64,000 bases of DNA from Ectobacillus antri (GTDB lineage Bacteria; Bacillota; Bacilli; Bacillales; Bacillaceae_G). The DNA is taken from positions 1 through 64,000 of the forward strand of contig NZ_RIAV01000009.1 of NCBI RefSeq assembly GCF_003852715.1. The letters run 5' to 3'. This document shows positions 30,816 through 54,695 of the stretch, piece by piece (the first letter of the stretch is position 1; every line of letters starts with the position of its first letter). Position numbers and translations under genes: made by a program. Under the pieces are notes generated by a model. The model was not told where the DNA came from. It worked only from the letters and a program-made list of their open reading frames with translations, and did no database searches.

Positions 30816-31016
30816 ATGAGCGAAATTACCAATCCTATTTTAATGTTTATTGCTATTATTCTAACCATTATTGCTTCTTTTACAGCTTTTGATTTGTTAT
30901 TACTAGTCAAAACCGCACGGCAAAACAAATTATTTTTATTTCTCGGCAGTGTTTTTTCTTTAGCAACAGGCATATGGATTACAAGTTTTTTTGGCTTATT
31001 TAAAACAGAAGGTTAA
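30816..31016 (+). CDS. Short MHYT-like two-helix membrane protein
   Basis: 66 residues from ATG 30816 (AAAAGGA seven bases upstream). Two hydrophobic segments with the pattern SLATGIWITSFFGLF resemble the first repeat of MHYT sensor domains (usually about 190 residues with three repeats). It is either a stand-alone mini-MHYT protein or a gene shortened on its 3' side. A terminator and the prophage integrase follow at once. Confidence 0.55.
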   Translation: MSEITNPILMFIAIILTIIASFTAFDLLLLVKTARQNKLFLFLGSVFSLATGIWITSFFGLFKTEG

Positions 31017-31040
31017 TTACTTGTAAACGTTGATAAATAA

Positions 31041-31071
31041 GGGTTTCTCGACTATGAGAAACCCTGTTTTT
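31041..31071. terminator. Terminator at the left prophage boundary
   Basis: AGGGTTTCTC-GACTAT-GAGAAACCCTGTTTTT. It separates host and phage transcription. The left attachment site should lie in or near 31017-31104, which also holds two TGACCACATT copies; the core cannot be fixed without the right end. Confidence 0.75.
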
Positions 31072-31104
31072 GTTCATTTGACCACATTTTGACCACATTG
31101 ATAT

Positions 31105-32220
31105 TTATTTTGCGTTTTTGAACAGTAAATCGTCTATTTTTTGAGCCGCTTCTTCTTGCATGCCCTTTAACACATGAGAATAGGTTTTGAGGGTAACTGT
31201 AGGGTTCACGTGTCCTAATCGTTCCGCGACAACTTTTATATGCACACCCGCTTTTAAAAGTAATGTAGCGTGTGTATGACGAAGATCATGAAAACGGATG
31301 CGAGGCAAACCAGACATCTTTAAATATTTATTCCATACCTTCCAAAAGTTTTCGTTACATGTATGATGCCCTGTAAGCGTGCAAGCAACAAGATCTAAGT
31401 CTTTATATGCAACACCCTGGCTCAATTTTTCTTGTTTTACTTTCAAACGGTGTTTAAGCAATTCTTGTATTGTGAATTCCGGTAACATGATAGAGCGTTT
31501 TGAACTTGCGGTTTTAGCATCTAAAATGAGTTGATTCTGTGCAGATAAAGTCTGTTTAACATGAATTGTCTTATTATCAAAATCAATATCTTGCCACCGT
31601 AATCCTAATATTTCACCACGTCGCATACCAGTGGTTGCAGCTAGTAAAAACGCAATGCGATAACGACTAGGTCTACACACTTCTAAAAAATGATTGAGTT
31701 GCACTTCATCCCATACCCTTGTAGGAGCAGCAGTTTCCCTAGGTTTTTCTGTAAATTCTGCGGGATTTCGTTTTATATAGCCCATTTCTACGGCTCGTTT
31801 TAAAGATTGATTTAACAGTTTGTGGACTTTGTATATAGTGGAAGAAGAGTGTGTATCACTCATATCATTATATAGTTTCTGTAAATGAGCCGTTTTTAGA
31901 TTTTCTAGCCGAACTTGTCCAATTTTAGGTATAATGTAATGGTCGATAGATCGTTCATACATAAAATACGTGCTTTCCTTTAAGTTTATCTTTTTAGATT
32001 GTAACCAAAACCGCAGGAAAGACTCCAGTGTATCTTTCGATGTTTCGATATAAGACCCTTCTTGTATTTCTGTTTGAAGCTTGGCCAAAGCGGCTTGAGC
32101 TTCTTTTTTTGTGGAAAATCCACCTTTTGTCTTTTGTTTTCTTTTTCCAGTGGCTTCATCTCGCCCTATGTCTATTGTATAAGACCACGTTTTCCCGCGT
32201 TTTCGAATGTATCCCTTCAT
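31105..32220 (-). CDS. int: Phage tyrosine integrase
   Basis: 371 residues with the three-domain plan of Tn916/lambda-type integrases. An arm-binding domain (MKGYIRKRGKTWSYTIDIG, KGGFSTKKEAQAAL) is followed by a SAM-like core-binding domain (about 65-155) and a catalytic domain with Arg in TTGMRRGEILGLRW, HDLRHTH, GHVNPTVTLKTYSH (His/Trp box and Tyr nucleophile). It faces the host boundary, so attL should lie just beyond its 3' end. ATG at 32220 follows GGGAGAAACG. A bidirectional terminator separates it from the repressor gene transcribed in the same direction. Confidence 0.93.
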   Translation of the reverse strand: MKGYIRKRGKTWSYTIDIGRDEATGKRKQKTKGGFSTKKEAQAALAKLQTEIQEGSYIETSKDTLESFLRFWLQSKKINLKESTYFMYERSIDHYIIPKIGQVRLENLKTAHLQKLYNDMSDTHSSSTIYKVHKLLNQSLKRAVEMGYIKRNPAEFTEKPRETAAPTRVWDEVQLNHFLEVCRPSRYRIAFLLAATTGMRRGEILGLRWQDIDFDNKTIHVKQTLSAQNQLILDAKTASSKRSIMLPEFTIQELLKHRLKVKQEKLSQGVAYKDLDLVACTLTGHHTCNENFWKVWNKYLKMSGLPRIRFHDLRHTHATLLLKAGVHIKVVAERLGHVNPTVTLKTYSHVLKGMQEEAAQKIDDLLFKNAK

Positions 32221-32296
32221 CGTTTCTCCCTTCTTTCTATTTATTTGTACACTCTACCTTTATCACGTCACAAACGTTTTATCAACAAAAATAAAA

Positions 32297-32319
32297 AAAG
32301 GACTGCATATCAGTCCTTT
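32297..32319. terminator. Bidirectional hairpin overlapping the repressor stop codon
   Basis: AAAGGACT-GCATATC-AGTCCTTT with A/T tracts on both sides. Confidence 0.7.
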
Positions 32320-32657
32320 AAAAATGGTTCCACTAACTTCATATAATTGATAAGGTGCTCTAAAAGTTTTTTCTGTTGATGTTCCGGAAGTTGTTTTATT
32401 CTATGCATAATTTCTACAACTTCATCTGGGTACTCTTGATCTACTACGTCGTCAGCTTGAATGCCTAATATGTAATCTGCAGATACACTGTATAACTCGG
32501 ATAATTTCTTGATTGTGTCAGCATTAGGGACGCGATGACTTAAACCTTCATTTTCGTATCCTGTGTATGTACTGCGGCTAACGTTTAAGTATTGCGCCAC
32601 ATCCTCTTGCTTCAAGTTATGCAGTTTACGTAAGTGAACTAAACGTCTTTGTAACAC
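32310..32657 (-). CDS. CI-like XRE-family prophage repressor
   Basis: 115 residues from GTG 32657 (GGGGAA eight bases upstream); the frame is open further 5' but that stretch is the operator/promoter region. The HTH is at about 13-35 (LKQEDVAQYLNVSRSTYTGYE), followed by a typical SINR-type linker (LSELYSVSADYILGI) and a helical tail likely for dimerisation. No protease or RecA-cleavage domain is visible. It is divergent from the Cro-like gene. Matching GTCGC dyads lie in the intervening 160 bases. Confidence 0.85.
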   Translation of the reverse strand: MLQRRLVHLRKLHNLKQEDVAQYLNVSRSTYTGYENEGLSHRVPNADTIKKLSELYSVSADYILGIQADDVVDQEYPDEVVEIMHRIKQLPEHQQKKLLEHLINYMKLVEPFLKD

Positions 32658-32700
32658 AGTCAGTTCCCCATCTCTTGTATATTGTACATCTATTATATAC

Positions 32701-32787
32701 GTCGCATATAGCGACATAAAGAAAAAAATGGATATGTCGCATTGTTTTAAAAATTTTGTGTACAAGTCGTCATTTGCGACTTATAAT
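32701..32787. promoter_or_regulatory. CI/Cro operator region
   Basis: Perfect 15-bp dyad GTCGCATATAGCGAC (32701-32715), a half-site GTCGCA (32736-32741), and a near-perfect dyad GTCGTCATTTGCGAC (32766-32780) immediately before TATAAT (32782-32787), the -10 of the rightward promoter. The first dyad overlaps the probable leftward repressor promoter. Confidence 0.65.
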
Positions 32788-32823
32788 GATAACAAAGTTA
32801 GGTAGTATTTAGGAGATGGTATC

Positions 32824-33012
32824 GTGCGTGAATGGTTAATTGATTTAAGACGCCAAAAGGGTTACACCCAGAAGGACGTAGCAGATGCAGTGGGGATCTC
32901 TCGCAATTATTACTCGGAAATCGAAAAAGGTAAAAGTTTAAGAGGAAAAGTAGCGTATGACATTGCAAAGTTTCTTAATTTTAAAATGGAAAAATTTTAT
33001 GAAAAAAGATAA
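32824..33012 (+). CDS. Cro-like XRE regulator
   Basis: 62 residues from GTG 32824 (GGAGATGG upstream), essentially a single HTH domain: LRRQKGYTQKDVADAVGISR and NYYSEIEKGK. It is the first gene of the rightward transcript, opposite the CI-like repressor, the position of Cro. A short inverted repeat with a T tract (33020-33040) follows and may end or attenuate this transcript. Confidence 0.8.
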   Translation: MREWLIDLRRQKGYTQKDVADAVGISRNYYSEIEKGKSLRGKVAYDIAKFLNFKMEKFYEKR

Positions 33013-33019
33013 AAATTGT

Positions 33020-33033
33020 AGAACGAACGTTCT
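33020..33033. promoter_or_regulatory. LexA (SOS) box-like dyad upstream of aimR
   Basis: AGAACGAACGTTCT contains GAAC-N4-GTTC, the core of the Bacillus LexA/DinR box (CGAAC-N4-GTTCG). It also has the shape of a 6-bp hairpin followed by GTTTTTGG, so a weak terminator of the Cro-like gene is the alternative. Confidence 0.4.
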
Positions 33034-33169
33034 GTTTTTGGTAAAATTATCTTATTAAATCAAATATAGGTCTTGAGTTTTAATAATTATTCTAACGAAA
33101 AATAATCAGAATTTTGAGATATTTTTTAGTAACTATTACTTATGTTTTTGTTAGATTAGGGGGAGGGCA

Positions 33170-34357
33170 ATGCAAAAGGTTTTTGAAAAAATAAAAGTAG
33201 GACTAGAAAAACAGGAGATTAGTAATAGGAAATTGGCGAAAATCACAAAAATAAGCCATACTGCAATCAACAAAATAATGAATGGGGGATATACACCTGA
33301 TTTCATTGTTTTTATAAAAATCATACAGTTAGCTTACCCTGATGATTTAGAAAAGCAGAAAGAGTCTTTAAGATCTTACTGTGAACATATGTCTCCAGTA
33401 AATACACGTATTGCACTCGAATTTTTGAGTATGTATGGTGATGTAGAATTACTAGAAGAAGTCATAAAAAAGAGTGAAATACTCTTTGATGAGGTAAAAA
33501 AAGAAAAAAAGAGATTAAGTAAATCACTACACACAAATAAGCAACTTGTTGATTTATATAGTTTATTATGCAAACGAAGTACAATGAGCATCTCTAGCAA
33601 AGAGTATTATGTTAATGTTAAAGATATGTTAAAATCTTGCAAAATAACATCTGAGGAAGTCAAAGTAATTTCTGAATTCGCACTAATATATTCGTTTATG
33701 GATTCATTCGATTATAAAGTGGCACGCGAATATACAGAACGATTAATTCCTTATATTGAGCAAGTGAAAAATAGTACCCTTAATAGGTTATATAAATTTC
33801 GTGCTCAAGAGGTTTTACTCAATTGTTATCATAGAGCAAATGATACGGAAATGACTAGAATGATTTTGCAAAAAATAATTGATGATGCGGATAATCATTA
33901 TATAGGAATGTTAGCTGGCGCTTACTGTGTATTAGGTGAAACTTATGTTTTTTCTGATTTTACTCAAGCAAAGCTATATATGGAAAAGGCACTAGAAATC
34001 ATAAAAGTACCTACAAATAAAAAATTGAAAACCAGAAAAGAAAACATTAAAACAACTTTAGATTTTTTATACATACTTCATGAGATTGATCTTCACTTGA
34101 TACAACCAACACATCCCGCGGAACAAGCTTTTTTGCTGGCTAAACTGAAAAGGTTTGATGAAGCTATAGGTTTGTTAGAGGCGTTGTTAGCTAAAAATGG
34201 AGAATTAAGTGCCATACAGCACTATTATTTAGGGTATACTTATCTAAAAAAAGGAGATACAGACATCTCAAAAATCCATTTCGAGGAATCTTTAGAAAAA
34301 TTTAAAAAAACTTCAGATTTCTTCTATATTAAACTTCCAATGGAATATAAAAATTGA
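33170..34357 (+). CDS. aimR: AimR-family arbitrium receptor (lysis-lysogeny regulator)
   Basis: 395 residues, close to the 378-390 of the phi3T/SPbeta receptors. The N-terminal HTH at about 15-37 (ISNRKLAKITKISHTAINKI) is followed by an all-helical TPR-like repeat region to the end (AFALIYSFMDSFDYKVARE-type repeats, GMLAGAYCVLGETYVFSDF, HYYLGYTYLKKGDTDISKIH), which forms the peptide-binding superhelix and dimer interface in AimR proteins. TTAGGGGGAGGGC precedes ATG 33170. The peptide precursor aimP starts 32 bases downstream. By family knowledge, apo-AimR dimers activate aimX and lysis, and peptide binding turns this off, favouring lysogeny. Confidence 0.88.
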   Translation: MQKVFEKIKVGLEKQEISNRKLAKITKISHTAINKIMNGGYTPDFIVFIKIIQLAYPDDLEKQKESLRSYCEHMSPVNTRIALEFLSMYGDVELLEEVIKKSEILFDEVKKEKKRLSKSLHTNKQLVDLYSLLCKRSTMSISSKEYYVNVKDMLKSCKITSEEVKVISEFALIYSFMDSFDYKVAREYTERLIPYIEQVKNSTLNRLYKFRAQEVLLNCYHRANDTEMTRMILQKIIDDADNHYIGMLAGAYCVLGETYVFSDFTQAKLYMEKALEIIKVPTNKKLKTRKENIKTTLDFLYILHEIDLHLIQPTHPAEQAFLLAKLKRFDEAIGLLEALLAKNGELSAIQHYYLGYTYLKKGDTDISKIHFEESLEKFKKTSDFFYIKLPMEYKN

Positions 34358-34388
34358 TATAATTAGATTATAAAAAAGAGGTGATACA

Positions 34389-34541
34389 GTGAAATCCGTG
34401 TTATTAAAATCTATTATGGCTTTTGCAATTGTATTAGGTTTTGGATTTGTAGACATTCAATCAGTTGAAACAAATCAATACAAAAATGTAGCTGGTGGAA
34501 TAATTAAATCATTCTCCGACCCAGGACCTGGAGTAGGTTAA
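34389..34541 (+). CDS. aimP: AimP arbitrium peptide precursor
   Basis: 50 codons from GTG 34389, with AGAGGTG six bases upstream. A basic N-terminus (MKSVLLKS) is followed by a hydrophobic signal segment (IMAFAIVLGFGFVDI), a polar pro-region, and the C-terminus SFSDPGPGVG. Position, size and plan are those of AimP. The secreted form is trimmed to a C-terminal oligopeptide, usually six residues. Here that would be PGPGVG, or the seven-residue DPGPGVG if cut before Asp as in the DP-starting phi105-type peptide. No RGA ending is present, so it should be specific for a receptor different from SPbeta and phi3T. Confidence 0.85.
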   Translation: MKSVLLKSIMAFAIVLGFGFVDIQSVETNQYKNVAGGIIKSFSDPGPGVG

Positions 34542-34554
34542 TACATACAAAACG

Positions 34555-34590
34555 ATGACGACCGTCAATATGATGGTCGTCATTCGTCAT
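34555..34590 (+). terminator. Hairpin between aimP and the aimX-position ORF
   Basis: ATGACGACC (34555-34563) pairs with GGTCGTCAT (34575-34583). The following TCGTCATTT is only weakly U-rich, so it may be an attenuator rather than a full stop. Confidence 0.45.
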
Positions 34591-34600
34591 TTAAAGAACT

Positions 34601-34636
34601 TGGAAACAAAAAGTGCATATGCACAAAATATTTCCA
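34601..34636. promoter_or_regulatory. Bipartite dyad, candidate AimR operator
   Basis: TGGAAA (34601-34606) and TTTCCA (34631-34636) are perfect inverted half-sites separated by 24 bp. A second perfect palindrome GTGCATATGCAC (34613-34624) has exactly the same centre (34618.5). Known AimR operators are inverted half-sites separated by about 25 bp in front of aimX, which is the position here. Confidence 0.55.
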
Positions 34637-34679
34637 CCTAAAAAATGGTATTGAAATGTGATAAGGGGGATGAAGAGCA

Positions 34680-34829
34680 ATGGATCAAGCGACACTTTGC
34701 ACCAAACAAAAAAATAAAGAGCTGGAGGATAAAATTAAAGCGATACTGACAGCAGAAGCATTGGGTAAGCCGGTACCAGATATACTCGCGCTTGCAAAAG
34801 AACTTTTGGCAAAACAAAAAAGCGCATGA
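34680..34829 (+). CDS. Small ORF in the aimX position
   Basis: 49 residues from ATG 34680, nine bases after AAGGGGGA. The helical, Lys/Glu/Ala-rich sequence (KELEDKIKAILTAEALGKPV, ALAKELLAKQKSA) has no recognised family. It lies directly downstream of the candidate AimR operator and ends in a bidirectional terminator, so the transcript 34640-34842 is the best aimX candidate. In phi3T/SPbeta aimX is a short transcript, also with a small ORF, that antagonises the repressor system. Whether RNA or peptide acts here is unknown. Confidence 0.55.
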   Translation: MDQATLCTKQKNKELEDKIKAILTAEALGKPVPDILALAKELLAKQKSA

Positions 34830-34843
34830 TTATTGCGCTTTTT
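34816..34843. terminator. Bidirectional terminator
   Basis: AAAAAGCGCA-TGATTAT-TGCGCTTTTT between convergent genes. Confidence 0.8.
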
Positions 34844-35192
34844 ATTTTTGAATCTTATATAAGTTATTTATCATTTCTTCCATGACAAATTGATGTTCCT
34901 CAGTTAGTTTCATGTATGTTTCTATTACTTTTCGTGTCCTGTCATCAATTTGTAATTGTTGCTCTTCAGTTAGTTTTTCGTTATCAGATCTTCCTAATAA
35001 ATAATCTATACTTACTTCATATAATTCCGCTATCTTCACTAATATTTCATGGTCAGGCTGTCTTTTTCCATATTCGTAATTAGCATAAGTAGCCATATTT
35101 TTTAAGCCAATCTTTTTTGCAACAAACGTCTTTGACCATCCCTTTCTTTCCCTCAATTGTTGTAAACGTTTCGCGGTAATTTCCATGCTCAT
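34842..35192 (-). CDS. Second XRE-family repressor
   Basis: 116 residues from ATG 35192 (GAGAGGGA upstream). N-terminal HTH (LQQLRERKGWSKTFVAKKIG, ATYANYEYGKRQPD) with the ELYEVSIDYLLGR linker of SinR/ImmR-type repressors, and a helical C-terminus. It lies after the arbitrium genes, divergent from the small XRE protein at 35474. The intergenic 280 bases are full of repeats. It could be the target of the aimX product; this is inference from position. Confidence 0.8.
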   Translation of the reverse strand: MSMEITAKRLQQLRERKGWSKTFVAKKIGLKNMATYANYEYGKRQPDHEILVKIAELYEVSIDYLLGRSDNEKLTEEQQLQIDDRTRKVIETYMKLTEEHQFVMEEMINNLYKIQK

Positions 35193-35244
35193 ATATTTCC
35201 CTCTCCTCTTATATCTCATTCTAAGGTATCTATGTGTAAGGTAC

Positions 35245-35290
35245 TTTAAAGTAAGTTAAAGTAAGTTAAAGTAAGTTAAAGTAAGTTAAG
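35245..35290. repeat. Tandem 10-bp repeats in the repressor upstream region
   Basis: GTAAGTTAAA occurs three times exactly (35251-35280), followed by GTAAGTTAAG and preceded by GTACTTTAAA. The period is one helical turn. The array is bounded by AAGGTAC-type ends, suggesting an array of protein-binding half-sites. Confidence 0.75.
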
Positions 35291-35313
35291 GTACAAATTC
35301 TAAAATTAAGAAA

Positions 35314-35330
35314 TGTAACTGTCAGTTACA
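35314..35330. promoter_or_regulatory. 17-bp dyad operator candidate
   Basis: TGTAACTGTCAGTTACA, perfect dyad around a central T, between the divergent repressors. Confidence 0.5.
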
Positions 35331-35401
35331 TCTATTGTACAGTATTACACATAAAATTACACGTGTCGATAAAAAATTTAATCAAAAAGAATAAAAAATG
35401 T

Positions 35402-35430
35402 TTGACTTAAACAAAATGTAGAGGTAAGAT
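35402..35430 (+). promoter_or_regulatory. Rightward early promoter
   Basis: TTGACT (35402-35407), 17-bp spacer, TAAGAT (35425-35430), reading into the XRE gene at 35474 and the early operon. Confidence 0.6.
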
Positions 35431-35441
35431 AAAAACATAAG

Positions 35442-35458
35442 TTAAACGAAAAGTTTAA
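35442..35458. promoter_or_regulatory. TTAAAC-N5-GTTTAA operator, copy 1
   Basis: TTAAACGAAAAGTTTAA lies between the promoter and the ribosome site of the XRE gene. An identical-arm copy lies just after the gene. Confidence 0.55.
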
Positions 35459-35473
35459 AAAGAGGTGGAGTTA

Positions 35474-35677
35474 TTGCGATACACACATGAAAAACTTCGT
35501 GCTCGTAGAAAGAAAAGCGGGATCTCGCTGACGTTCATCGCGAAAGAACTTGGGTATATAGGTGCCAGCGGATACTACAATATAGAAATTGGTCGTAAAA
35601 AACCAGATGTGCAACAGGCTCGAATCATTGCTGGCATACTTAATACAACGATAGAAGAACTTTTTTTTGAAAATTAG
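35474..35677 (+). CDS. Small XRE-family DNA-binding protein
   Basis: 67 residues from TTG 35474, six bases after AGAGGTG; GTG 35465 is within the ribosome site. It is a single HTH (LRARRKKSGISLTFIAKELG, GYYNIEIGRKKP) with NTTIEELFFEN at the end. Matching TTAAAC-N5-GTTTAA dyads flank the gene on both sides, suggesting autoregulation and control of the downstream early operon. Confidence 0.8.
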   Translation: MRYTHEKLRARRKKSGISLTFIAKELGYIGASGYYNIEIGRKKPDVQQARIIAGILNTTIEELFFEN

Positions 35678-35694
35678 TTAAACGATTTGTTTAA
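35678..35694. promoter_or_regulatory. TTAAAC-N5-GTTTAA operator, copy 2
   Basis: TTAAACGATTTGTTTAA, with a further TTAAAC at 35695-35700, directly after the XRE stop and before the next ribosome site. Confidence 0.5.
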
Positions 35695-35731
35695 TTAAAC
35701 AACTTGAATAACACTAGGGGGAGTGGAAATC

Positions 35732-35998
35732 ATGTCTTTCGAACAACAGTTACAAGTCCTCATTGAAGAGACTGTAGAACGTATGATTCCCAAAATCGTG
35801 GAGAAGTTAGGTGGCGTTTCACCCAAACCGACTATGACGGTAGAAGAGACTATGGAAGTGCTCGGCGTTTCGAAAAACCGCATGTACGAGTTACTTCAGT
35901 TGGACAACTTCCCAGCCATTAAGCCAGGCAAGCGCTGGGTCATCTTAACGGATGGGTTACATCAATGGATGAAGGAAGATGCAAGAAAAGTCCTGTAA
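35732..35998 (+). CDS. Helix-turn-helix (excisionase-like) DNA-binding protein
   Basis: 88 residues from ATG 35732 (AGGGGGAG upstream). The C-terminal half (TMTVEETMEVLGVSKNRMY, PAIKPGKRWVILTDGLHQWM) is the MerR/excisionase-type HTH_17 fold; the N-terminal about 40 residues are helical (EQQLQVLIEETVERMIPKIV). Such proteins act as phage excisionases or early transcription factors; distance from the integrase makes the second more likely. Confidence 0.75.
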   Translation: MSFEQQLQVLIEETVERMIPKIVEKLGGVSPKPTMTVEETMEVLGVSKNRMYELLQLDNFPAIKPGKRWVILTDGLHQWMKEDARKVL

Positions 35999-36011
35999 AG
36001 GAGGTGAAAAC

Positions 36012-36170
36012 ATGGTTGAAAACACAACAAACTTACTGCTTATCACGTTGGGTTTTGGTCTTGGGTTGTTCATTCTTTTTATGGTGGTTGGCACGATGTA
36101 CTTGTTCATCGAAGAAAATGAACGGTTGGATGCAGAGAACAAAGAATTACGAAAGAGAGTGAGGATGTAA
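36012..36170 (+). CDS. Small single-pass membrane protein
   Basis: 52 residues from ATG 36012, after GGAGGTG. One transmembrane helix (LLLITLGFGLGLFILFMVV) is followed by a charged coiled-coil-like tail (EENERLDAENKELRKRV). Early phage membrane proteins of this shape are common and unassigned; superinfection exclusion is only a possibility. Confidence 0.6.
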   Translation: MVENTTNLLLITLGFGLGLFILFMVVGTMYLFIEENERLDAENKELRKRVRM

Positions 36171-36171
36171 C

Positions 36172-36534
36172 ATGATTGGTTCCATTAAAAAATACATGCT
36201 TAGCACAAGGGTATTACCAGAAGATATCGACCGTGCTGTCGAGCTGCATAACTACATCGCATACTGTTGTGCGAGACAGTTTAAGTCGGCTGATATTGCG
36301 AACGAAGTAGAAGCGGACAAGCAGTTTAAGTTCTATCAGTTAGAGCAGTTACAAGCGGAAATGCAGTTGCTAGAACTGGAGAAAAAGCGAAAAGAGCATG
36401 AACGAACAGCAGAGCTTCTAGAGGATTTAGTAAAGCGTGGATTACAAGGTGTCGCGAACGTCATCATGGAGGCGCAAGGTCGGGGTCAATGTGAAACTAA
36501 GCTACAGTTACTTACTTTAGAGGAGGTGAGATAA
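36172..36534 (+). CDS. Phage hypothetical protein, coiled coil
   Basis: 120 residues. The middle (YQLEQLQAEMQLLELEKKRK) is a clear coiled coil, N-terminal RVLPEDIDRAVELHNYIAYC. It starts one base after the preceding stop and ends adjacent to the next ATG, so it is part of a tight operon. No family recognised. Confidence 0.65.
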   Translation: MIGSIKKYMLSTRVLPEDIDRAVELHNYIAYCCARQFKSADIANEVEADKQFKFYQLEQLQAEMQLLELEKKRKEHERTAELLEDLVKRGLQGVANVIMEAQGRGQCETKLQLLTLEEVR

Positions 36535-36726
36535 ATGATTGAAAACGGCATGTTAATCGGAAACGCACATGACAGTTGCACGAAAGACTTCGATGAATAC
36601 TGTAGCATCTGTGATGGCGAGCTGTACTACGGCATGAAGTATTACCAACTCGGTGCAATCTTCGTTTGTGAAAAGTGTGAAAATCGAGTGTTGGAAATTG
36701 CTCTTGTGCGAGTAGCTGGAGAATAA
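36535..36726 (+). CDS. Small zinc-ribbon-like phage protein
   Basis: 63 residues with CSIC near 22-25 and CEKC near 46-49, the spacing of a treble-clef or ribbon zinc site. GGAGGTGAG at the end of the previous gene serves as ribosome site. Function unknown. Confidence 0.65.
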   Translation: MIENGMLIGNAHDSCTKDFDEYCSICDGELYYGMKYYQLGAIFVCEKCENRVLEIALVRVAGE

Positions 36727-36750
36727 AAAACATTAACAGAGGTGAAAGAA

Positions 36751-36951
36751 ATGAAAGTGGAAGTGAAACCAGCAGGCGTATCCATGATTGAGTTTCATCA
36801 GTCCGTGTACCGCAGCTTGATTGAACGTTATACAGAAAGTAACGATCCGCACTTAAAAGCAACAGCGAACACATACAAGCATTTTGTGGCACAGCTTGAA
36901 CAAATTCGCCAGCTAGTCACAGGTGAAGGTATTGAAGATTCACCATTCTAA
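36751..36951 (+). CDS. Phage hypothetical protein
   Basis: 66 residues from ATG 36751, six bases after GAGGTG; GTG 36742 falls in the ribosome site. Helical (EFHQSVYRSLIERYTES). No family recognised. A terminator-like hairpin follows. Confidence 0.6.
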   Translation: MKVEVKPAGVSMIEFHQSVYRSLIERYTESNDPHLKATANTYKHFVAQLEQIRQLVTGEGIEDSPF

Positions 36952-36954
36952 CAA

Positions 36955-36983
36955 AAAAAGAGCCTTGGCAGGGGCTCTTCCAA
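36955..36983 (+). terminator. Hairpin inside the early operon
   Basis: AAAGAGCC-TTGGCAGG-GGCTCTT followed by CCAAAAAA. The missing U tract suggests partial termination or RNA processing rather than a strong stop. Confidence 0.45.
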
Positions 36984-37027
36984 AAAAACATCTACGGTTA
37001 TTATAACCGAAACGGAGGGAAATGTAC

Positions 37028-37507
37028 ATGAAATTGTACGAACTTACCAATCAATATCGTCAACTGGTTGACATGGTTGACGAACTGGACCAACAAACAT
37101 TGGCAGATACGCTAGAAAGCATCAGCGATCTGATTGAAGATAAAGCGGAAAATATCGCGTTTGTCATCCGCACACTAGAAGCAGAAGCGAAGGTAATTAA
37201 AGAAGAAGAGGAACGTCTACAGGCGCTTCGAAAAGCACGTGAAGCGCGCGTAAGCAACTTGAAGGATTATCTCTTACACCAGTTAGAAACGGCAGGTATC
37301 AGCAAAATCAAACGTCCTAAGGTGATGATAAGCATCACCAACAATCCGGCCAGTGTGAGGGTGTTGGATGAAACGATGATACCGGATATCTACAAAATCC
37401 CACAAGCGCCAAAGCTTGATAAGAAAGCGGTGCTGGCAGAGCTGAAGAACGGTGGGTTTGTCATCGGAGCGGAATTACAACAAGGAAAGGGCGTGCGTAT
37501 TAAATGA
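37028..37507 (+). CDS. Siphovirus Gp157-family protein
   Basis: 159 residues from ATG 37028 (CGGAGGG eight bases upstream). The N-terminal coiled coil (MKLYELTNQYRQLVDMVDEL, RTLEAEAKVIKEEEERLQAL) and C-terminal beta region with SITNNPASVRVLDE define Gp157, linked in streptococcal phage to phage resistance and found beside single-strand annealing genes. It overlaps the ERF gene by four bases. Confidence 0.85.
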   Translation: MKLYELTNQYRQLVDMVDELDQQTLADTLESISDLIEDKAENIAFVIRTLEAEAKVIKEEEERLQALRKAREARVSNLKDYLLHQLETAGISKIKRPKVMISITNNPASVRVLDETMIPDIYKIPQAPKLDKKAVLAELKNGGFVIGAELQQGKGVRIK

Positions 37508-38178
37508 CAAACGAAAAACAACTAGTCCGCAAACTGTCTGAAGTCATGAACGAGGTAAAGTACATCCAGAAGAAAGGCTACAACAGCTTTCATAAATATC
37601 GCTATGCAACAGAAAGCGATGTAGCTGAAAAAATACGGGAAGAGTTAGCGAAACGAAACATCATCATGATTCCAAGTGTGTTGTCACAAGAAGCTCGTGA
37701 ACATACAAATCAACGTGGTAATCGCGAGTATATTGTAACAGTTATGATGCAGTTCACTTTTTACGATGGAGATACAGGTGAAGATATTACCTTCCAGATG
37801 GGCGGTCAAGGTCAGGATGCTGGTGATAAAGGGATATACAAAGCTATGACAGGCGCACAAAAATATGCGTTGATGAAAGCCTTCATGATTCCGACAGGTG
37901 ATGACCCAGAAGCTGACGAGGGCGTAGACGAAAGAAATCAGAGCGAATCACAAAAACAGCAATCATCCAATAAACCAACTACTGCGCAAACAAAGACGAT
38001 ATTCGCTAAGATTACCACGCTCGGCAAGGTAACAGGGAAAACAGTAGAAGGCATTAAGTCATCACTATGCAAGAACATCGGTGTTGCTTCTATAGATGAT
38101 ATGAACAAGTCGCAAGCAAGCAAAGCAATTGAGTTATTGAGCGAGTGGGAAAAGCTTGCTGCAGATAAAACCGCATAG
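37504..38178 (+). CDS. ERF-family single-strand annealing recombinase
   Basis: 224 residues. The ERF core (LVRKLSEVMNEVKYIQKKG, FHKYRYATESDV, GQDAGDKGIYKAMTGAQKYA and FMIPTGDDPEAD) covers residues 1-140. A Gln/Ser/Thr-rich linker leads to a C-terminal helical region (TTLGKVTGKTVEGIKSSL). It anneals homologous single strands for phage recombination and genome circularisation, together with SSB and RecU encoded downstream. Coupled to the Gp157 gene by an ATGA overlap. Confidence 0.88.
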   Translation: MTNEKQLVRKLSEVMNEVKYIQKKGYNSFHKYRYATESDVAEKIREELAKRNIIMIPSVLSQEAREHTNQRGNREYIVTVMMQFTFYDGDTGEDITFQMGGQGQDAGDKGIYKAMTGAQKYALMKAFMIPTGDDPEADEGVDERNQSESQKQQSSNKPTTAQTKTIFAKITTLGKVTGKTVEGIKSSLCKNIGVASIDDMNKSQASKAIELLSEWEKLAADKTA

Positions 38179-38203
38179 GGTTCGGTCATCCGAGCCCTGC
38201 GGG

Positions 38204-38213
38204 GTGGACACAA
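38204..38213 (+). repeat. Cassette 5' boundary motif, copy 1
   Basis: GTGGACACAA just upstream of the gene at 38239. It is related to GTAGACACATACTGTGA at 41324 and 45361, which also precede inserted small genes. Confidence 0.45.
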
Positions 38214-38238
38214 AATGCGTAATAAAGGAGAGGTTAAA

Positions 38239-38607
38239 TTGAGTAAAGAAAATCAACTAATTATAAGCGATAGAAATCAATTTAAAACCGTAATGTTGTT
38301 TCATGTTATTGAAATGGAAAATGAATATGAATACGAACAACAAGTAGGCTGTAACGAAGATATGGAGGAATTCATGAAGTTGTATTTCGATAAAAACTGG
38401 AAAGAGTTCTTCATGGATACCTATGTTGACCACCGAAAGGTGTGTGATGTTGGATTCAATGGTTTGTTGATTGTAGCTAAGAATGAAATGGGTGTAGTTA
38501 GATACCAAATGGACAGAAGCGAACGACTTGCTGTCACATTTAATCATGAAGTGCTAGGTGATGAAAATGCAACTAAGATAAAAAAGATAAGAGAAATAAT
38601 CGGTTAA
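38239..38607 (+). CDS. Cassette gene A, unknown function
   Basis: 122 residues from TTG 38239 (AAAGGAGAGG upstream). Acidic, with an N-terminal beta strand pattern (FKTVMLFHVIEMENEYEYE) and VAKNEMGVVRYQMDRSER. It is AT-richer than the ERF and initiator genes around it. It is bracketed by a GTGGACACA motif upstream and AGTCCGAAGA at 38616, the same boundary pair found around the Tad2 homologue, so an accessory or anti-defence role is proposed by analogy only. Confidence 0.6.
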   Translation: MSKENQLIISDRNQFKTVMLFHVIEMENEYEYEQQVGCNEDMEEFMKLYFDKNWKEFFMDTYVDHRKVCDVGFNGLLIVAKNEMGVVRYQMDRSERLAVTFNHEVLGDENATKIKKIREIIG

Positions 38608-38610
38608 TAC

Positions 38611-38626
38611 GTCATAGTCCGAAGAA
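38611..38626 (+). repeat. Cassette 3' boundary motif, copy 1
   Basis: GTCATAGTCCGAAGAA. The core AGTCCGAAGA (38616-38625) recurs at 41618 (one change), 42136 and 45691, each after a small inserted gene. Confidence 0.65.
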
Positions 38627-38661
38627 ACAATGAATGATCGGTAACAAAGGAGGTTCACAAC

Positions 38662-39684
38662 ATGAACAGTAAAGTGTTCGAAATTAACGCGCTTCATTTT
38701 CACGGAAACATCATTGATGATGGGTGGTTCCTTAACATACGAAAAGGGAAAAAGCCTTACATGCTGGCAATCATGATTTTAGGAGAAATCGTGTACTGGT
38801 ATCGACCAACTGTATCCAGAGATGAGGAAACAGACCAAACGGTTTTTAAACAGAAATTTAAAGCAGATAAGTTACAACGCAGCTATAAACAGTTTGCTCA
38901 AAAGTACGATGTATCTCGTGATGTAGTGAAAGCAGCTTGTGACCATCTGGTGGAAATGAAGTTAATCACTACAGAGTTTCGAACAATCGTTGTGAACGGC
39001 AGTGCATTAAACAACGTCATGTTTGTGGAACCAGTACCAGAGGAAATAAAGAAGATCAGTATTTCATATATGGCGCTACAAGATACCCGCCCTAGGTATC
39101 AAAAATCGGAGGAGACTCCCCTTGAAAATACCACCACCCTCCCCTTAGAAATCGGAGGAGACTCCCCTGAAAAATCGGAGGAGACTCCCCTTGAAAATCG
39201 GAGGACGTATACAGAGATTACTACAGAGAGTTCTACAAAGAATTCTACAGATATAAAGAGTAAAAAAAATAGCCCGGACATCCGTCCGAGCACACCAGCA
39301 CCAACTGGTCAATCATCTACTTCTAGTATAGACAAGCCTAAAGAAAAAAATACCATTCCGTTTGCGGAAATTGTGAATTATCTCAACGAACAAGCGATTA
39401 CCGATTACAAAGCCACATCAAAAGAAATACAGCGATTGATTCGAGCTCGTTGGAAAGATGGATATCGTGTAGAGGACTTTAAAAAGGTAATCGATACAAA
39501 AGTAGCAGAATGGCTGAATGATCCGAAGATGAACATGTATTTACGACCAAGTACATTGTTCGGCAACAAGTTTACCGATTATCACGGACAACGTCCTGTA
39601 AGGAAAGGGGTAGTCAAATATGCAACACCTCAACAACAGCATTCAAGATATGCAGGCGACAACGATGTCAAGCTACCTTTCTGA
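38662..39684 (+). CDS. Phage replication initiator (winged helix plus conserved phage C-terminal domain)
   Basis: 340 residues after AAAGGAGG. The N-terminal about 130 residues form a winged-helix domain (KQFAQKYDVSRDVVKAACDHL, VEMKLITTEFRTI). A low-complexity linker contains repeated SEETPLE units. The C-terminal domain (AEIVNYLNEQAITDYKATSK to LRPSTLFGNKFTDY) is the conserved module of phage replication proteins (TIGR02220 type) that contacts the helicase loader. The next gene is a DnaC-like loader. DNA repeats encoding the linker are candidate origin iterons. Confidence 0.88.
   Translation: MNSKVFEINALHFHGNIIDDGWFLNIRKGKKPYMLAIMILGEIVYWYRPTVSRDEETDQTVFKQKFKADKLQRSYKQFAQKYDVSRDVVKAACDHLVEMKLITTEFRTIVVNGSALNNVMFVEPVPEEIKKISISYMALQDTRPRYQKSEETPLENTTTLPLEIGGDSPEKSEETPLENRRTYTEITTESSTKNSTDIKSKKNSPDIRPSTPAPTGQSSTSSIDKPKEKNTIPFAEIVNYLNEQAITDYKATSKEIQRLIRARWKDGYRVEDFKKVIDTKVAEWLNDPKMNMYLRPSTLFGNKFTDYHGQRPVRKGVVKYATPQQQHSRYAGDNDVKLPF
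39103..39206. repeat. Direct repeats within the initiator gene, candidate phage origin
   Basis: Three near-identical copies of AATCGGAGGAGACTCCCCT plus GAAAA (39103-39128, 39149-39173, 39172-39197) and a partial fourth (to 39206). Each holds the small dyad GGAG-GAGA-CTCC. Location inside the initiator gene is the classic place for a phage origin (compare lambda O). Confidence 0.6.
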
Positions 39685-40435
39685 TACGTGCGATAACCAT
39701 AGCAAGCCGGTACAAATGATGATGTTAAACGGACAGAAGGTATGTCCAAGATGCTTCTGCCAGTCACTAGATACAGCACTGCAGCAAGAAAAGCAACGTG
39801 ACTACGAGCAGTATAAAGCAAGTGAGAAACGCATGGTGTTCTACCGAGAAAGCATGATAGCGGACCAAACGATTCGAGATGCTTCATTTGATACCTATGT
39901 ATGTGAATGCGCTGAAACGGCGGAGAACTTTCAAAAAGCAAGACAGGCTGCGGCTGATTACCGAAAAGGAGAGGTGTTCACCCTCTTCTTGGCCGGTAAG
40001 CCGGGCACAGGAAAAAGCCATCTTGCTTACAGTATCGCGAAAGAAGTAAATGAGGACGGCGACAAGCGCACACTGTTCATTACAATTGACCAACTCTTAC
40101 AGCGCATTAAAAGCACGTTCAGTAAGGATGCAAAAGAAACGGAGCACAGTATCATACAAAGTCTGATTGAAGCGGACTTCTTGGTACTGGATGATTTAGG
40201 CGCAGAGCTTGGTGATCTCAACGGAGACAACAAGGCGACCAACTTCATTAACAGGGTATTGTTCTCCGTGCTGGAAGGACGACAAGGCAAACCGCTCATC
40301 ATCACGACAAACCTAACAGGCGATAAAATCAGGCAAGCGTACGATGACCGCAGTGTATCGCGTATGTTTAGAGGATTCCGGCATATCAAGTTTAAGACGG
40401 CGAAAGACAAACGAATGATAGAAATTCCATTCTAG
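39620..40435 (+). CDS. DnaC/DnaI-like helicase loader ATPase
   Basis: 271 residues from ATG 39620 (AAAGGGG upstream), overlapping the initiator gene by 65 bases. The N-terminal region has a CPRCFC cysteine motif (about 42-47) as in DnaI zinc domains. AAA+ motifs: Walker A AGKPGTGKSHLA, Walker B FLVLDDLGAEL, sensor-1 IITTNLT, arginine finger region SVSRMFRGF. It loads the replicative helicase at the origin. Ends with a ribosome site for the next small gene. Confidence 0.9.
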   Translation: MQHLNNSIQDMQATTMSSYLSDTCDNHSKPVQMMMLNGQKVCPRCFCQSLDTALQQEKQRDYEQYKASEKRMVFYRESMIADQTIRDASFDTYVCECAETAENFQKARQAAADYRKGEVFTLFLAGKPGTGKSHLAYSIAKEVNEDGDKRTLFITIDQLLQRIKSTFSKDAKETEHSIIQSLIEADFLVLDDLGAELGDLNGDNKATNFINRVLFSVLEGRQGKPLIITTNLTGDKIRQAYDDRSVSRMFRGFRHIKFKTAKDKRMIEIPF

Positions 40436-40446
40436 GAGGGATAGAG

Positions 40447-40641
40447 ATGTGTACATGTGATGGCAAAGGGGTTGTGTATGAAGCAGCAGGATTAGGGATG
40501 TATACGATTCAGCCTTGTTCCTGCCAACCAACAGGCAGAGAAAAATACGACGAAACGATGCGTATCTTCCGCGAGAGATTTAACGCCGCTCTCGCCGCTT
40601 TAGAAGTACAACAATACGACGAGGTACGCAAGTATGGGTAG
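40447..40641 (+). CDS. Small Cys-motif phage protein
   Basis: 64 residues. The N-terminus MCTCDGKGVVYEAAGLGMYT and then PCSCQP carries a CxC..CxC pattern as in DnaJ-like zinc modules, followed by a helical tail. GGAGGGATAGAG precedes ATG; it overlaps the next gene by 8 bases. Function unknown. Confidence 0.65.
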   Translation: MCTCDGKGVVYEAAGLGMYTIQPCSCQPTGREKYDETMRIFRERFNAALAALEVQQYDEVRKYG

Positions 40642-40900
40642 ACCAGTCGGAGCCGCAGATACCGGGCGTACGTGGCGAAAAGGGCGGTCAGAACGATACA
40701 TCGCACTAGAGAATTTCGATTTGCTGTTTGATTGGACAGAAGTACGTGATTTTGTGGAGATGTGGGAAGCGGGCATTAGCTTCCCTGACATCGCCAAGAA
40801 AATGAAACGGCATCAAATTGAGTTGGCAGCACTATTGCTCGATTTGGGAGATGCAGAAAAAATACAGCCGCGCGCAGGCGGTCTAGGAGGATTTATATGA
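40634..40900 (+). CDS. Phage hypothetical HTH-like protein
   Basis: 88 residues. A core ([39 protein letters not shown]) resembles a helix-turn-helix of phage early proteins. It overlaps both neighbours (start inside the upstream gene, ATGA with ssb). Function unknown. Confidence 0.65.
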
Positions 40901-41319
40901 TCAATGCAGTCACATTAGTTGGAAGGTTAACTAAGGACCCGGAATTACGTTATACGCAAAATGGAGTAGCAACTGCAAACTTTACACTGGCAGTCAACCG
41001 CACATTCTCGAATCAGCAAGGAGAGCGCGAAGCGGATTTCATCAACTGCGTGGTATGGCGCAAGCCGGCAGAGAACACAGCGAACTACTGCCGCAAAGGT
41101 CAGTTGGTTGGGGTGACAGGTCGCATCCAAACGCGGAATTACGAGGGGCAAGATGGCAAGAAGGTATATGTGACAGAGGTCGTGGCAGATAGTGTGCAGT
41201 TCCTAGAGGGTAAGAAGGACGGCGGGCAAGACCAAACGAGTAAACAGGACAGAGTGAAAGATCCATTTGTGATGACTGGCGGTGTAATAGAAATTTCAGA
41301 CGAAGACTTACCGTTCTGA
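40897..41319 (+). CDS. ssb: Single-stranded DNA-binding protein
   Basis: 140 residues. OB-fold signatures [67 protein letters not shown], and the acidic C-terminal tip ISDEDLPF that recruits repair and replication partners. Phage-encoded copy serving replication and ERF annealing. The inserted cassettes begin immediately after its stop. Confidence 0.95.
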
Positions 41320-41323
41320 CGGA

Positions 41324-41340
41324 GTAGACACATACTGTGA
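41324..41340 (+). repeat. Cassette 5' boundary motif, copy 2
   Basis: GTAGACACATACTGTGA, five bases after the ssb stop. An identical 17-mer is at 45361-45377, before the Tad2 homologue. Confidence 0.75.
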
Positions 41341-41360
41341 CATGAGAGAGGAGAATAAAG

Positions 41361-41612
41361 ATGTTAAAAGTTAAACTGGTTAATTTTGATGATTTAACGG
41401 AAGAGGAAAGAGAAATTCAACCTAATAACGGTTGGGGTAAAGAATACGCAAACTACATTAAAATCACAGATGGTACTGAAACTTTAATGATTTTATCTGA
41501 TTCAGCAGAACCCGAAGATGCTACTTTCAATAGAGATTTCAAAAACGTAATAAAAGCAATAGAAATGGCTTACTTGAAAGGCTTAAAGGACGGTAAGAAA
41601 TTAAATAAGTAG
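41361..41612 (+). CDS. Cassette gene B, unknown function
   Basis: 83 residues, acidic in the first half (FDDLTEEEREIQPNNGWGKE) with a helical C-terminus (IEMAYLKGLKDGKKLNK). GAGAGAGGAG precedes ATG. AT-rich codon use unlike ssb. It is bracketed by the boundary motifs at 41324 and 41618. No family recognised. Confidence 0.6.
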   Translation: MLKVKLVNFDDLTEEEREIQPNNGWGKEYANYIKITDGTETLMILSDSAEPEDATFNRDFKNVIKAIEMAYLKGLKDGKKLNK

Positions 41613-46458: not shown

Positions 46459-46494
46459 AATTGATAAAAGCAATTAGCGTGTGAGGTGGTGGAA

Positions 46495-46932
46495 GTGACA
46501 CTTAATGAGAGACAAAAGGCGTTTGCGGATTATTACATCCAGTTAGGGAGCGCAGAAGCCGCGGCAAGGAAAGCAGGATACAGTGAACGATATGCTAGAG
46601 GGAATGCGCATAAGTTAGTTGCAAATAGTGGCATTAAGGCATATATCGAGGAACGTAACAAGCAGATAGAGAGCCGTAGGATAGCTGATATGACCGAGGT
46701 AAAGGAGTTCTGGACATATGTCCTGCGGGATAACAATGCGGAGTCTAAGGACCGTTTAAAGGCTTCTGAATACATTGCGAAAACGAATGCCGCGTTTGTT
46801 GAGAAAGTACAGCATAGCGGCGAGATGACACAAAACGTCAACGCAACAGTGGAAGTAGATTATAAGAAGTATACGTTAGAGGAGTTGAAACAGCTTGAAG
46901 CACTTGCTGCCAAACTTACTCAATCTGAATGA
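46495..46932 (+). CDS. terS: Terminase small subunit
   Basis: 145 residues from GTG 46495, six bases after GAGGTG; earlier GTG codons lie in that site. The N-terminal HTH (LNERQKAFADYYIQLGSAEA, AARKAGYSERYARGNAHKLV) recognises the packaging site. The middle helices oligomerise and the C-terminus contacts the large subunit (Terminase_2 family). The large-subunit gene starts inside its end. Confidence 0.9.
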   Translation: MTLNERQKAFADYYIQLGSAEAAARKAGYSERYARGNAHKLVANSGIKAYIEERNKQIESRRIADMTEVKEFWTYVLRDNNAESKDRLKASEYIAKTNAAFVEKVQHSGEMTQNVNATVEVDYKKYTLEELKQLEALAAKLTQSE

Positions 46933-48364
46933 GATCCAGAAGGAATTGGCACGGCGAGATTATGAATCCTATGTGTCGTATGTGCATGAAAAGCGATACA
47001 AGAGTGCACCGCATAACCGCTTTATATGCAGTAAGCTACAAGATGCGATAGAGCGCCGTAAACGCATGATAACAGGTGAGGAACCAATGAAGGTACAATA
47101 TCTTGCCTTTAACCTACCGCCGCGTCATGGTAAAAGTATGACGATTACAGAGACGTTTCCGAGTTACTTCCTTGGTCACTTTCCAGATGACCGTGTGATT
47201 GAGTTATCGTACGGTACTAATTTCGCAGAACGATTCGGTAAGAAGAACCGTGAGAAAGTGGAGTTGTACGCAAATGAATTATTCGGCGTGGAGCTCAATA
47301 AGCGCAGCTCTAGTTCAACAGACTGGGATATTGAAGGCACACGCGGTGGCATGATTAGCCGCGGTATTTTGGCTGGTGTCACAGGGCAAGGTGCGGATTT
47401 AATGATTATTGATGACCCGATTAAGAACCGTGAAGAAGCGGATAGTGAGACGTATCGTGAAAAGATATGGCTAGAATGGATTGATTCTCTATCTACACGC
47501 TTACATCCAGGTGCGATTTGCATTCTTATCTTAACAAGGTGGCATGAGGATGATCTGCAAGGGCGGTTACTGAATCCAGAATACGCGGAGCCGTTACCGT
47601 GGCAAGTGTATAATCTGCCATTAGAAGCAGAACAAAACGACTTACTAGGTAGAGCGCAAGGTGAACCGCTTTGGCCAGAGAGATACGGTATTGACTTTAT
47701 TGAAGAACGCAAACGTTATCCGCAGTCATTCAACGCATTGTACCAAGGGCGACCAACGTCACAGGAAGGGAACTTGCTGAAGCGTGACTGGTGGCAGTAC
47801 TATGATACGTTACCAGAGCTTGCAATTGAGCTTATCAGCGTGGATGCCGCGTTTAAGGATGAAGATGATAACGACTATGTGGCGGTGCAAGTATGGGGGA
47901 AATCAGGCGCGAACGTCTATTTGAAAGATAGCGTGAAAGCGCGTATGAACTTTCCAACTACCCTACAAACGATACGTAACATGGTACGCAAGCATCCGAA
48001 TGCGCATGTCAAACTGGTAGAAGATAAAGCAAATGGTTCTGCTATCATCAGTATGTTACAACGTGAGATAGGCGGTATGATACCGGTTAACCCACAAGGC
48101 GGCAAGGTCGCACGTGTGAATGCGATATCTGCTTATATTGAAGCAGGAAACGTGTATCTACCACGACAAGCAGAATGGGTACACGACTTTGTGGAAGAAT
48201 GCGCCAGCTTCCCAAAAGGAAAAAACGACGATCAGGTTGATTGCATGAGTCAAGCGTTGAATCGTTTGTATTACAATGCAGGCGACTTAGAAGCACAACG
48301 TAAACCACAACTAGCCTATCCATTCCGTAGCACAGAACGCGAGGAGGATTATATATCATGGTAA
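46895..48364 (+). CDS. terL: Terminase large subunit (packaging ATPase/nuclease)
   Basis: 489 residues from TTG 46895, overlapping terS by 38 bases. ATPase domain with Walker A PPRHGKSM, Walker B DLMIIDDPIKN and coupling motif ILTRWHEDD. Nuclease domain with Asp in ELISVDAAFKDEDDNDYVAV, LVEDKANGS and DDQVDCMSQAL. It drives DNA into the prohead and cuts the concatemer. Length and motif order are standard. Confidence 0.93.
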   Translation: MKHLLPNLLNLNEIQKELARRDYESYVSYVHEKRYKSAPHNRFICSKLQDAIERRKRMITGEEPMKVQYLAFNLPPRHGKSMTITETFPSYFLGHFPDDRVIELSYGTNFAERFGKKNREKVELYANELFGVELNKRSSSSTDWDIEGTRGGMISRGILAGVTGQGADLMIIDDPIKNREEADSETYREKIWLEWIDSLSTRLHPGAICILILTRWHEDDLQGRLLNPEYAEPLPWQVYNLPLEAEQNDLLGRAQGEPLWPERYGIDFIEERKRYPQSFNALYQGRPTSQEGNLLKRDWWQYYDTLPELAIELISVDAAFKDEDDNDYVAVQVWGKSGANVYLKDSVKARMNFPTTLQTIRNMVRKHPNAHVKLVEDKANGSAIISMLQREIGGMIPVNPQGGKVARVNAISAYIEAGNVYLPRQAEWVHDFVEECASFPKGKNDDQVDCMSQALNRLYYNAGDLEAQRKPQLAYPFRSTEREEDYISW

Positions 48365-48594
48365 TAACACTCGCTTTATTGATTCCTGTTACAGCCCTTG
48401 TAACGGGCTATTTTACGTTGAAAGCCGTACAGCTAGGGTTACGGTGGCAGATTGAAGTACGGAGCGAACAGCCGCCGAGTATGGAGACACCTGTTACACA
48501 AGTACAGCGTGTGGTGCAGGAGCGGCAAGAGTTTAAAGATACACAAGAGCAAATCGCAGTCATGAATGAGTGGCTCAATGGAGAAGTGAGGTGA
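48358..48594 (+). CDS. Small phage membrane protein
   Basis: 78 residues. One N-terminal membrane helix (ITLALLIPVTALVTGYFTL) then a polar Gln/Glu-rich tail. It overlaps the terL end (GAGGAGG there is its ribosome site). Unknown role in the packaging/head cluster. Confidence 0.65.
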   Translation: MVITLALLIPVTALVTGYFTLKAVQLGLRWQIEVRSEQPPSMETPVTQVQRVVQERQEFKDTQEQIAVMNEWLNGEVR

Positions 48595-48598
48595 GTAC

Positions 48599-50362: not shown

Positions 50363-50432
50363 GTGTTTTTTATTTTGACCTCAGCATGTCGTTAAACTGC
50401 ATGTGCCAACCATAGCACAAGGAGGAATAAAA

Positions 50433-51182: not shown

Positions 51183-51195
51183 GGAGGAATAACAC

Positions 51196-52152: not shown

Positions 52153-52154
52153 TC

Positions 52155-52186
52155 CAATGAGGGGCTTCGGCTCCTCTTTTTTACTA
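52155..52186 (+). terminator. Rho-independent terminator after the capsid gene
   Basis: GAGGGGC-TTCG-GCTCCTC followed by TTTTTT. Confidence 0.8.
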
Positions 52187-52201
52187 TAAGGAGGTATTTA
52201 G

Positions 52202-52471: not shown

Positions 52472-52500
52472 CACTCTAATCAAATAGGGTGCTTTTTTTA
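52468..52500 (+). terminator. Rho-independent terminator
   Basis: AGCACTCT-AATCAAAT-AGGGTGCT followed by TTTTTTT. Confidence 0.7.
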
Positions 52501-52517
52501 TGTAAAGGGGGAGACTT

Positions 52518-54041: not shown

Positions 54042-54083
54042 TTCGTATTCGGACGATACTGCGACATAACAGGTATGTATGAG

Positions 54084-54110: not shown

Positions 54111-54129
54111 TATAGAAAGGAGGGGTTGC

Positions 54130-54684: not shown

Positions 54685-54695
54685 GGAGGGGGATT

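Follow-up and report, generated by a model that had tools for sequence, protein, structure and literature searches.

The first, B. subtilis-centred view of arbitrium peptides was dominated by the RGA ending, because five of the six peptide families that make up 80% of the sequences in the 2017 survey end in RGA (PMC6458997, in part). SPbeta and Katmira, the latter belonging to clade 2, have peptides of this type, and R228 of both receptors holds the C-terminus of the peptide (PMC6458997 and PMC9232636, both in part). Researchers have also described systems with a different peptide end. Phage vB_BtS_B83, placed in clade 7 of Stokar-Avihail et al. (2019), carries an AimR, an AimP-like precursor of 46 aa ending in ADPGGSVG, and a small ORF among cI/Cro-like genes, and it is probably a circular plasmid prophage (PMC6669507, in part). 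A study of structural phylogenies calls the DPG motif widespread in the mature peptides of an AimR subfamily, Paenibacillaceae RRNPPA subfamily 08, without presenting these Paenibacillaceae systems as phage systems (PMC12700828, in part).

Here, we analysed a stretch of 64,000 nucleotides of the Ectobacillus antri genome (contig NZ_RIAV01000009.1, positions 1 to 64,000; "the window"), in which an integrated prophage very probably carries an arbitrium module for the lysis-lysogeny choice, with a peptide of the DPG type. As in B83, a receptor is accompanied by a DPG-type precursor and a small ORF among cI/Cro-like genes, but the peptide letters differ (DPGPGVG in the window) and the window's prophage is integrated; B83 is likened to it by peptide and description, and subfamily 08 by description.

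Results

The features of the locus are collected in Table 1. The aimR product clearly exceeded the cut-offs of both curated AimR models (NCBIfam lysogeny_AimR, NF038310, 314.5 bits against 70; Pfam AimR, PF22871, 117.5 bits against 26.7), scored 312.8 bits with phrog_1728, and has an HTH_3 domain spanning residues 12-52 (24.0 bits, cut-off 23). In a PDB sequence search, the top ten matches were all AimR entries, 9f36 being the first (E 5.5e-9). When an AlphaFold model built from five sequences (pLDDT 84.6, pTM 0.77) was ranked with VIA-align, AimR entries took the first 13 places with Z from 31.7 to 25.4 (6s7i: Z 31.7, 358 residues aligned, rmsd 3.5), and below them stood Rap (19.6), NprR (18.6) and PlcR (17.4). 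The alignment behind the model contained four further AimRs and so favours an AimR-like result; this fold match therefore does not confirm the family assignment independently, whereas the assignment from sequence profiles owes nothing to that alignment. The preliminary description had proposed an AimR/AimP pair and a check by AimR profile search against a Rap/PlcR-type regulator, and the profiles, PDB matches, fold ranking and prophage setting bear the pair out.

The receptor has 26-29% identity to its nearest relatives in the alignment. With this protein as query, no close relative was found in the named genome collection or IMG/VR, and the phage and plasmid collections gave distant matches only (23-29% identity; 7 and 6 records, respectively). 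No phage record shared sequence with the DNA of 31000-41400 in a near-mode search, and no AimR was among the 50 matches listed for the model in the viral structure library (best TM 0.34).

Table 1 Positions in the window of the features discussed in the text
Feature	Position	Strand	Remarks
14-bp attachment core TTTTTTGGCTTATT, left copy	30987..31000	+	right copy at contig position 70458-70471
Tyrosine integrase of prophage	31105..32220	-	Phage_integrase PF00589, phrog_1
XRE-type repressor-like protein	32310..32765	-	HTH_3
Small XRE-type protein	32824..33012	+	HTH_3
LexA-box-like palindrome AGAACGAACGTTCT	33020..33033	.	12 of 14 to consensus; 136 bases before aimR start codon
aimR, HTH + TPR arbitrium receptor, 395 aa	33170..34357	+	ATG start; NF038310, PF22871, phrog_1728 matches
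Ribosome-binding-like site AGAGGTG of aimP	34377..34383	+	read from sequence; 5 bases before GTG
aimP, 50-aa arbitrium peptide precursor	34389..34541	+	GTG start, ends SDPGPGVG; position and DPG end as beside related AimRs
Codons of proposed heptapeptide DPGPGVG	34518..34538	+	placed by the repeats of related precursors
Strong hairpin directly after aimP	34555..34583	+	34545-34600: -22.9 kcal/mol, z -5.96; no T run
Dyad TGGAAA-24-TTTCCA around GTGCATATGCAC, candidate AimR operator	34601..34636	.	13 of 18 pairs
49-aa ORF, aimX position	34680..34829	+	putative role, from position only
Intrinsic-terminator-like stem, end of 49-aa ORF	34817..34843	+	stem prediction
cI-like XRE repressor	34842..35219	-	HTH_3, phrog_8
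Cro-like XRE protein, divergent from cI-like gene	35465..35677	+	HTH_3

The aimP product (MKSVLLKSIMAFAIVLGFGFVDIQSVETNQYKNVAGGIIKSFSDPGPGVG) has Lys and a markedly hydrophobic segment, MKSVLLKSIMAFAIVLGFGF, in its N-terminus (hydropathy of the best ten residues 2.77). This resembles a Sec signal peptide, so that AimP is putatively secreted. Both reading frames, the 395-residue receptor and the 50-codon signal-peptide-type precursor ending in SDPGPGVG, lie where they had been placed, and only the intergenic gap had to be corrected, as it counts 31 bases (34358-34388) and not 32. No model in the profile libraries matched the 50-aa AimP at E 0.1; AimP-like precursors recur at the same position beside the AimR genes of relatives.

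This AimR is the only one over the cut-off in the host genome (3.49 Mb, 74 contigs), and the aimR-aimP pair sits among the control genes of a prophage of ~39.5 kb that seems complete, as read from its genes. From the integrase on, these are excisionase-like, Erf-like, replication, DnaC-like, terminase, portal and major head genes, followed by those for a tail-spike-like protein, head closure, holin and an amidase endolysin. The flanks of the prophage form one uninterrupted gene in two of the three other genomes of the genus, indicating that a host sensor-kinase gene is interrupted by the prophage (in the congener tested, the gene encodes an MHYT-PAS-histidine kinase), and the third genome matched the right-hand flank only. 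It is this uninterrupted gene in the congeners' sequences, rather than the 14-bp repeat, that carries the attachment-site call, as a second repeat of equal length exists and makes the repeat alone weak. Precise excision should restore the split kinase gene. The virion genes within 46486-63704 include those for the portal, head closure, the tail-spike-like protein and a 1408-aa protein with LPD38. Among the prophage proteins tested, none matched a tail-tube or tape-measure protein, and a virion gene set of this composition suggests a short-tailed phage carrying arbitrium. The phage protein at 52518-54041, in the virion-gene region, has a GDSL lipase/acylhydrolase domain.

AimR genes were searched for in 397 order-level and 398 class-level genomes, and matches over the cut-off were found in 79 and 14 of them, respectively; the two samples overlap and hold one genome per species, so that species rather than phages are counted, and related receptors do not represent independent cases. 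The 124 loci analysed comprise 120 from the searched genomes, the window's included, and four taken from named records, including a phage chosen for its known RGA peptide. From 142 loci, 22 had been dropped (L001, a second copy of the window locus; L004-L008 and L047-L062, below the AimR cut-off), and by hand count 26 further order-level matches over the cut-off, mostly weaker, lie outside the set. A fixed rule, which asked for a start close to the end of aimR, a hydrophobic N-terminus and K/R, gave precursor calls in 51 of the 124 loci, and the remaining 73 mix true absence with misses of the rule. There were at least two such misses, L012 and L025, which were added by hand to the comparison of DP precursors and to the tree, L012 also to the pocket alignment. 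DP follows the signal region in 34 of the 51 called precursors and DPG in 15, whereas an RGA end occurs in 2, and 15 are of other types.

The tree of 123 receptors, from which L144 was excluded, as it was from the alignment, for an in-frame stop, includes 53 with an assigned precursor (17 DPG, 19 DP, 15 other, 2 RGA). The window AimR falls in a five-member clade with L145, L009, L146 and L025 (support 0.713), all with DPG, and the next node unites 13 members (support 0.992), with DPG in all nine assigned precursors and four unassigned. The precursor ends nearest to that of the window are RDPGGGMG, QDPGGGL, VDPGGG and TDPGTGIGN. The five-member clade includes the receptors of two plasmids, which, unlike the window's, are not in integrated prophages, namely Anoxybacillus sp. 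B7M1 plasmid NZ_CP015437 (precursor ...QDPGGGL; 27% receptor identity to the window) and Bacillus arachidis plasmid NZ_CP127373 (...VDPGGG; 22%). The former also shares the layout of the window, with receptor, precursor, small ORF, HTH(-) and HTH(+). The peptide end had at first been taken as unusual, a reading that is not supported by the survey counts, the clade composition and the DPG motif already in print (PMC12700828 and PMC6669507, both in part). In the papers searched, the exact string DPGPGVG was not found. By its sequence, the system of the window is arbitrium with a peptide end of the known DPG type.

Repeated units in related precursors bear on the place of cleavage. The comparison covered 37 DP precursors, three of them (L012, L025 and the B83 peptide) added by hand. 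More than one DP was present in eight, and six of these repeat a whole unit (L012, L076, L080, L111, L136, L138), for example DPGDPGMG or DPVEPPIK. Judged by eye among units that were picked from DP-containing precursors, Asp is the first residue of the unit in all six, and the residue before the unit varies in five (L111 has Ala in both places, and in L138 Asp precedes two of the three units). There are also repeated precursors with units without DP (L042, L067, L122, L141). The distance from the last Asp to the precursor end is most commonly eight residues (13/37) and then seven (5/37, the window included), with a range of 4-23. Within the five-member clade, DPG starts 5, 6, 7, 7 and 8 residues from the end, indicating that the peptide is marked by a conserved start and not by a fixed length.

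We mapped the receptor pocket on the 123-receptor alignment, in which the window and Katmira AimRs share ~22% identity, so that all pairings are provisional; the mapping is also rough because the nearest relatives of the window AimR are only 26-29% identical. The fold is that of the SPbeta and Katmira receptors, and Katmira N202, F276, E300 and D360 are kept as N218, F299, E318 and D383, but the position of R228 is taken by Gly (G246). Together with this low-identity pairing, a precursor end of PGVG in place of RGA sets the system apart from the RGA type. The preliminary description held that the pocket must differ from the Arg-recognising type, and this stands in part, the change from R228 to Gly agreeing with it and the four kept residues speaking against it. 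D360 contacts the Arg of RGA; since 17 of 19 DP and 8 of 16 DPG receptors have Asp at this position, its presence does not imply an Arg ligand. At the N202 position, Asn occurs in only two of the 16 DPG receptors, including that of the window. A preference of DP-type receptors for Arg/Lys at the N206 position (R222 in the window) was considered and is too weak to claim, with K/R in 20 of 35 DP/DPG receptors versus 38 of 88 others (hand sums).

Downstream of aimP, the strong hairpin may possibly form the end of the aimR-aimP transcript, and similar hairpins were seen by eye 3' of aimP in L009, L012, L025 and L033. The dyad that follows is a candidate AimR operator before the aimX-position gene, by analogy with the AimR box of Katmira, which lies downstream of aimP and has 6-bp arms separated by 25 bp (PMC9232636, in part). 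Shape and place fit, with arms 24 bp apart in the window, whereas the box sequence differs. When sequences were shuffled, its score came up once in 1000 trials for the 138-base gap and nine times in 2000 for an 89-base sub-gap. At least 11 other places in the window reach or pass this score, so that position, not score alone, argues for the candidate; the pattern itself recurs in the window only at 32112-32149, within the integrase gene. No common box was recognised downstream of aimP in the 19 loci compared, the window included, and the aligned window AimR does not keep N30, N32 and Y35, the residues that read the bases.

The 49-aa ORF has a ribosome-site match. It matched no family over the cut-off in the profile libraries, the only match being of HAD type below the cut-off (E 0.066), no relative was found in the plasmid collection, and its alignment with the Anoxybacillus plasmid ORF was not significant (E 0.22). 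A Spo0E-like identity was considered because Alo13 controls a spo0E-like gene, and it was rejected since there was no Pfam match even at E 0.1. Rfam gave no match within 31000-36500.

Between the small XRE gene and aimR lies a LexA-box-like palindrome, scored against CGAACRNRYGTTYG, which we take to be the LexA-box consensus. The sites before host lexA, recA and uvrB (CGAACTTATGTTTG, CGAATAGGTGTTCG and CGAATATTTGTTCG) each agree with this consensus in 13 of 14 positions. The core is expected by chance 0.59 times per window, and across the genome it is no more frequent than its reversed control (8 sites forward and 5 reverse, versus 13 and 14). None of the other eight core sites in the genome was seen by eye before a classical SOS gene, and none of the other loci of the 124-locus set has the core within 400 bases upstream of aimR. 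The sequence before aimR is thus no more than weakly suggestive of a real LexA site. If it were real, aimR would be under SOS control, and SOS and quorum inputs would be joined at this gene. Induction of SPbeta after SOS has been described as requiring AimR, in a study where the way in which SOS removes the phage repressor was undetermined (PMC8612738, in part).

Discussion

The receptor family and fold, the gene order, the secreted-type precursor, the DPG end shared by its clade and the prophage setting are established, and we infer that the peptide acts and that the system controls lysogeny. AimP would be exported, cleavage in front of Asp44 would release the heptapeptide DPGPGVG from it, and the host oligopeptide permease would take this peptide up again. 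In the absence of peptide, an AimR dimer would bind the dyad at 34601-34636 and activate the 49-codon aimX-position transcript, favouring lysis; in its presence, AimR would release the dyad, favouring lysogeny.

Other readings of the receptor fare far worse. The HTH/TPR architecture is common to NprR and PlcR, and one could think of a Rap, NprR or PlcR-type regulator with a Phr-like peptide, but the scores with NF038310 and PF22871 far exceed the cut-offs of these curated AimR models, the AimR structures rank well above those of all three families, and Rap proteins lack an HTH (PMC9765709, in part), yet HTH_3 is present here. We reject this identity for the 33170-34357 protein on profile scores and fold ranking and, unless the curated models are in error, consider its probability negligible. 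It is also quite improbable, if less so, that an AimR-like receptor has been recruited elsewhere, e.g. for the control of a host process, and no longer sets lysis against lysogeny. Such cases have precedents, since a precursor accompanies only 11% of the AimR genes outside prophages, phage-plasmids and plasmids (PMC9765709, in part) and in Paenibacillus host genes are under the control of the Alo13 system (PMC7425212, in part). The receptor of the window, however, has its precursor, adjoins cI-like and Cro-like genes, and belongs to a prophage whose genes include those for integrase, replication, terminase, portal, head, holin and endolysin, all of which argues against such a recruitment.

Within that module, the active peptide could instead be the last six residues, PGPGVG, as the hexapeptide rule of SPbeta- and Wbeta-type systems would have it. 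Clade 2 peptides have been proposed to be six residues long, which was confirmed for Katmira GIVRGA (PMC9232636, in part), the Wbeta hexapeptide EIKPGG is inactive without its first residue (PMC8878798, in part), and mature AloP13, SHGRGG, is also a hexapeptide (PMC7425212, in part). Against this, the unit begins at Asp in every repeating DP precursor with a mostly varying residue before it, and the DPG start in the five-member clade does not keep to one distance from the end. We therefore regard PGPGVG as unlikely, though much less so than a recruited receptor, and prefer a cut before Asp44 because the repeated units of the relatives start at Asp; the evidence leans towards the seven-residue DPGPGVG, which the preliminary description had offered as an alternative and which is now the better supported form. 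Multi-copy precursors are known for AimR systems (PMC9765709, in part), and that their repeats mark the cleavage site is what we infer in the present analysis. The window adds a well-preserved case to the DPG branch of arbitrium, together with a candidate operator that is short, and it yields the clear prediction that the peptide is DPGPGVG, not PGPGVG. A broader reading, in which the DPG clade would use a second code for arbitrium (cleavage in front of a conserved Asp, peptides mostly of 7-8 and not 6 residues, and a pocket without the R228 anchor) and aimR of this phage would in addition be under host LexA, through which DNA damage would act directly on the quorum receptor, is doubtful as a whole.

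The survey also gave some observations on other AimR loci. Among the matches listed, four AimR matches lie close together at G133:C1:4444365-4450180 and another four at G023:C7:92029-100434, both in genomes of the order to which the window belongs. The AimP-position precursors of L067, L042, L122 and L141 contain repeats of quite other letters, such as the three YDVDFRVR units of L067. L144 (CP045534) is a plasmid AimR-like gene in which the in-frame stop follows 169 codons.
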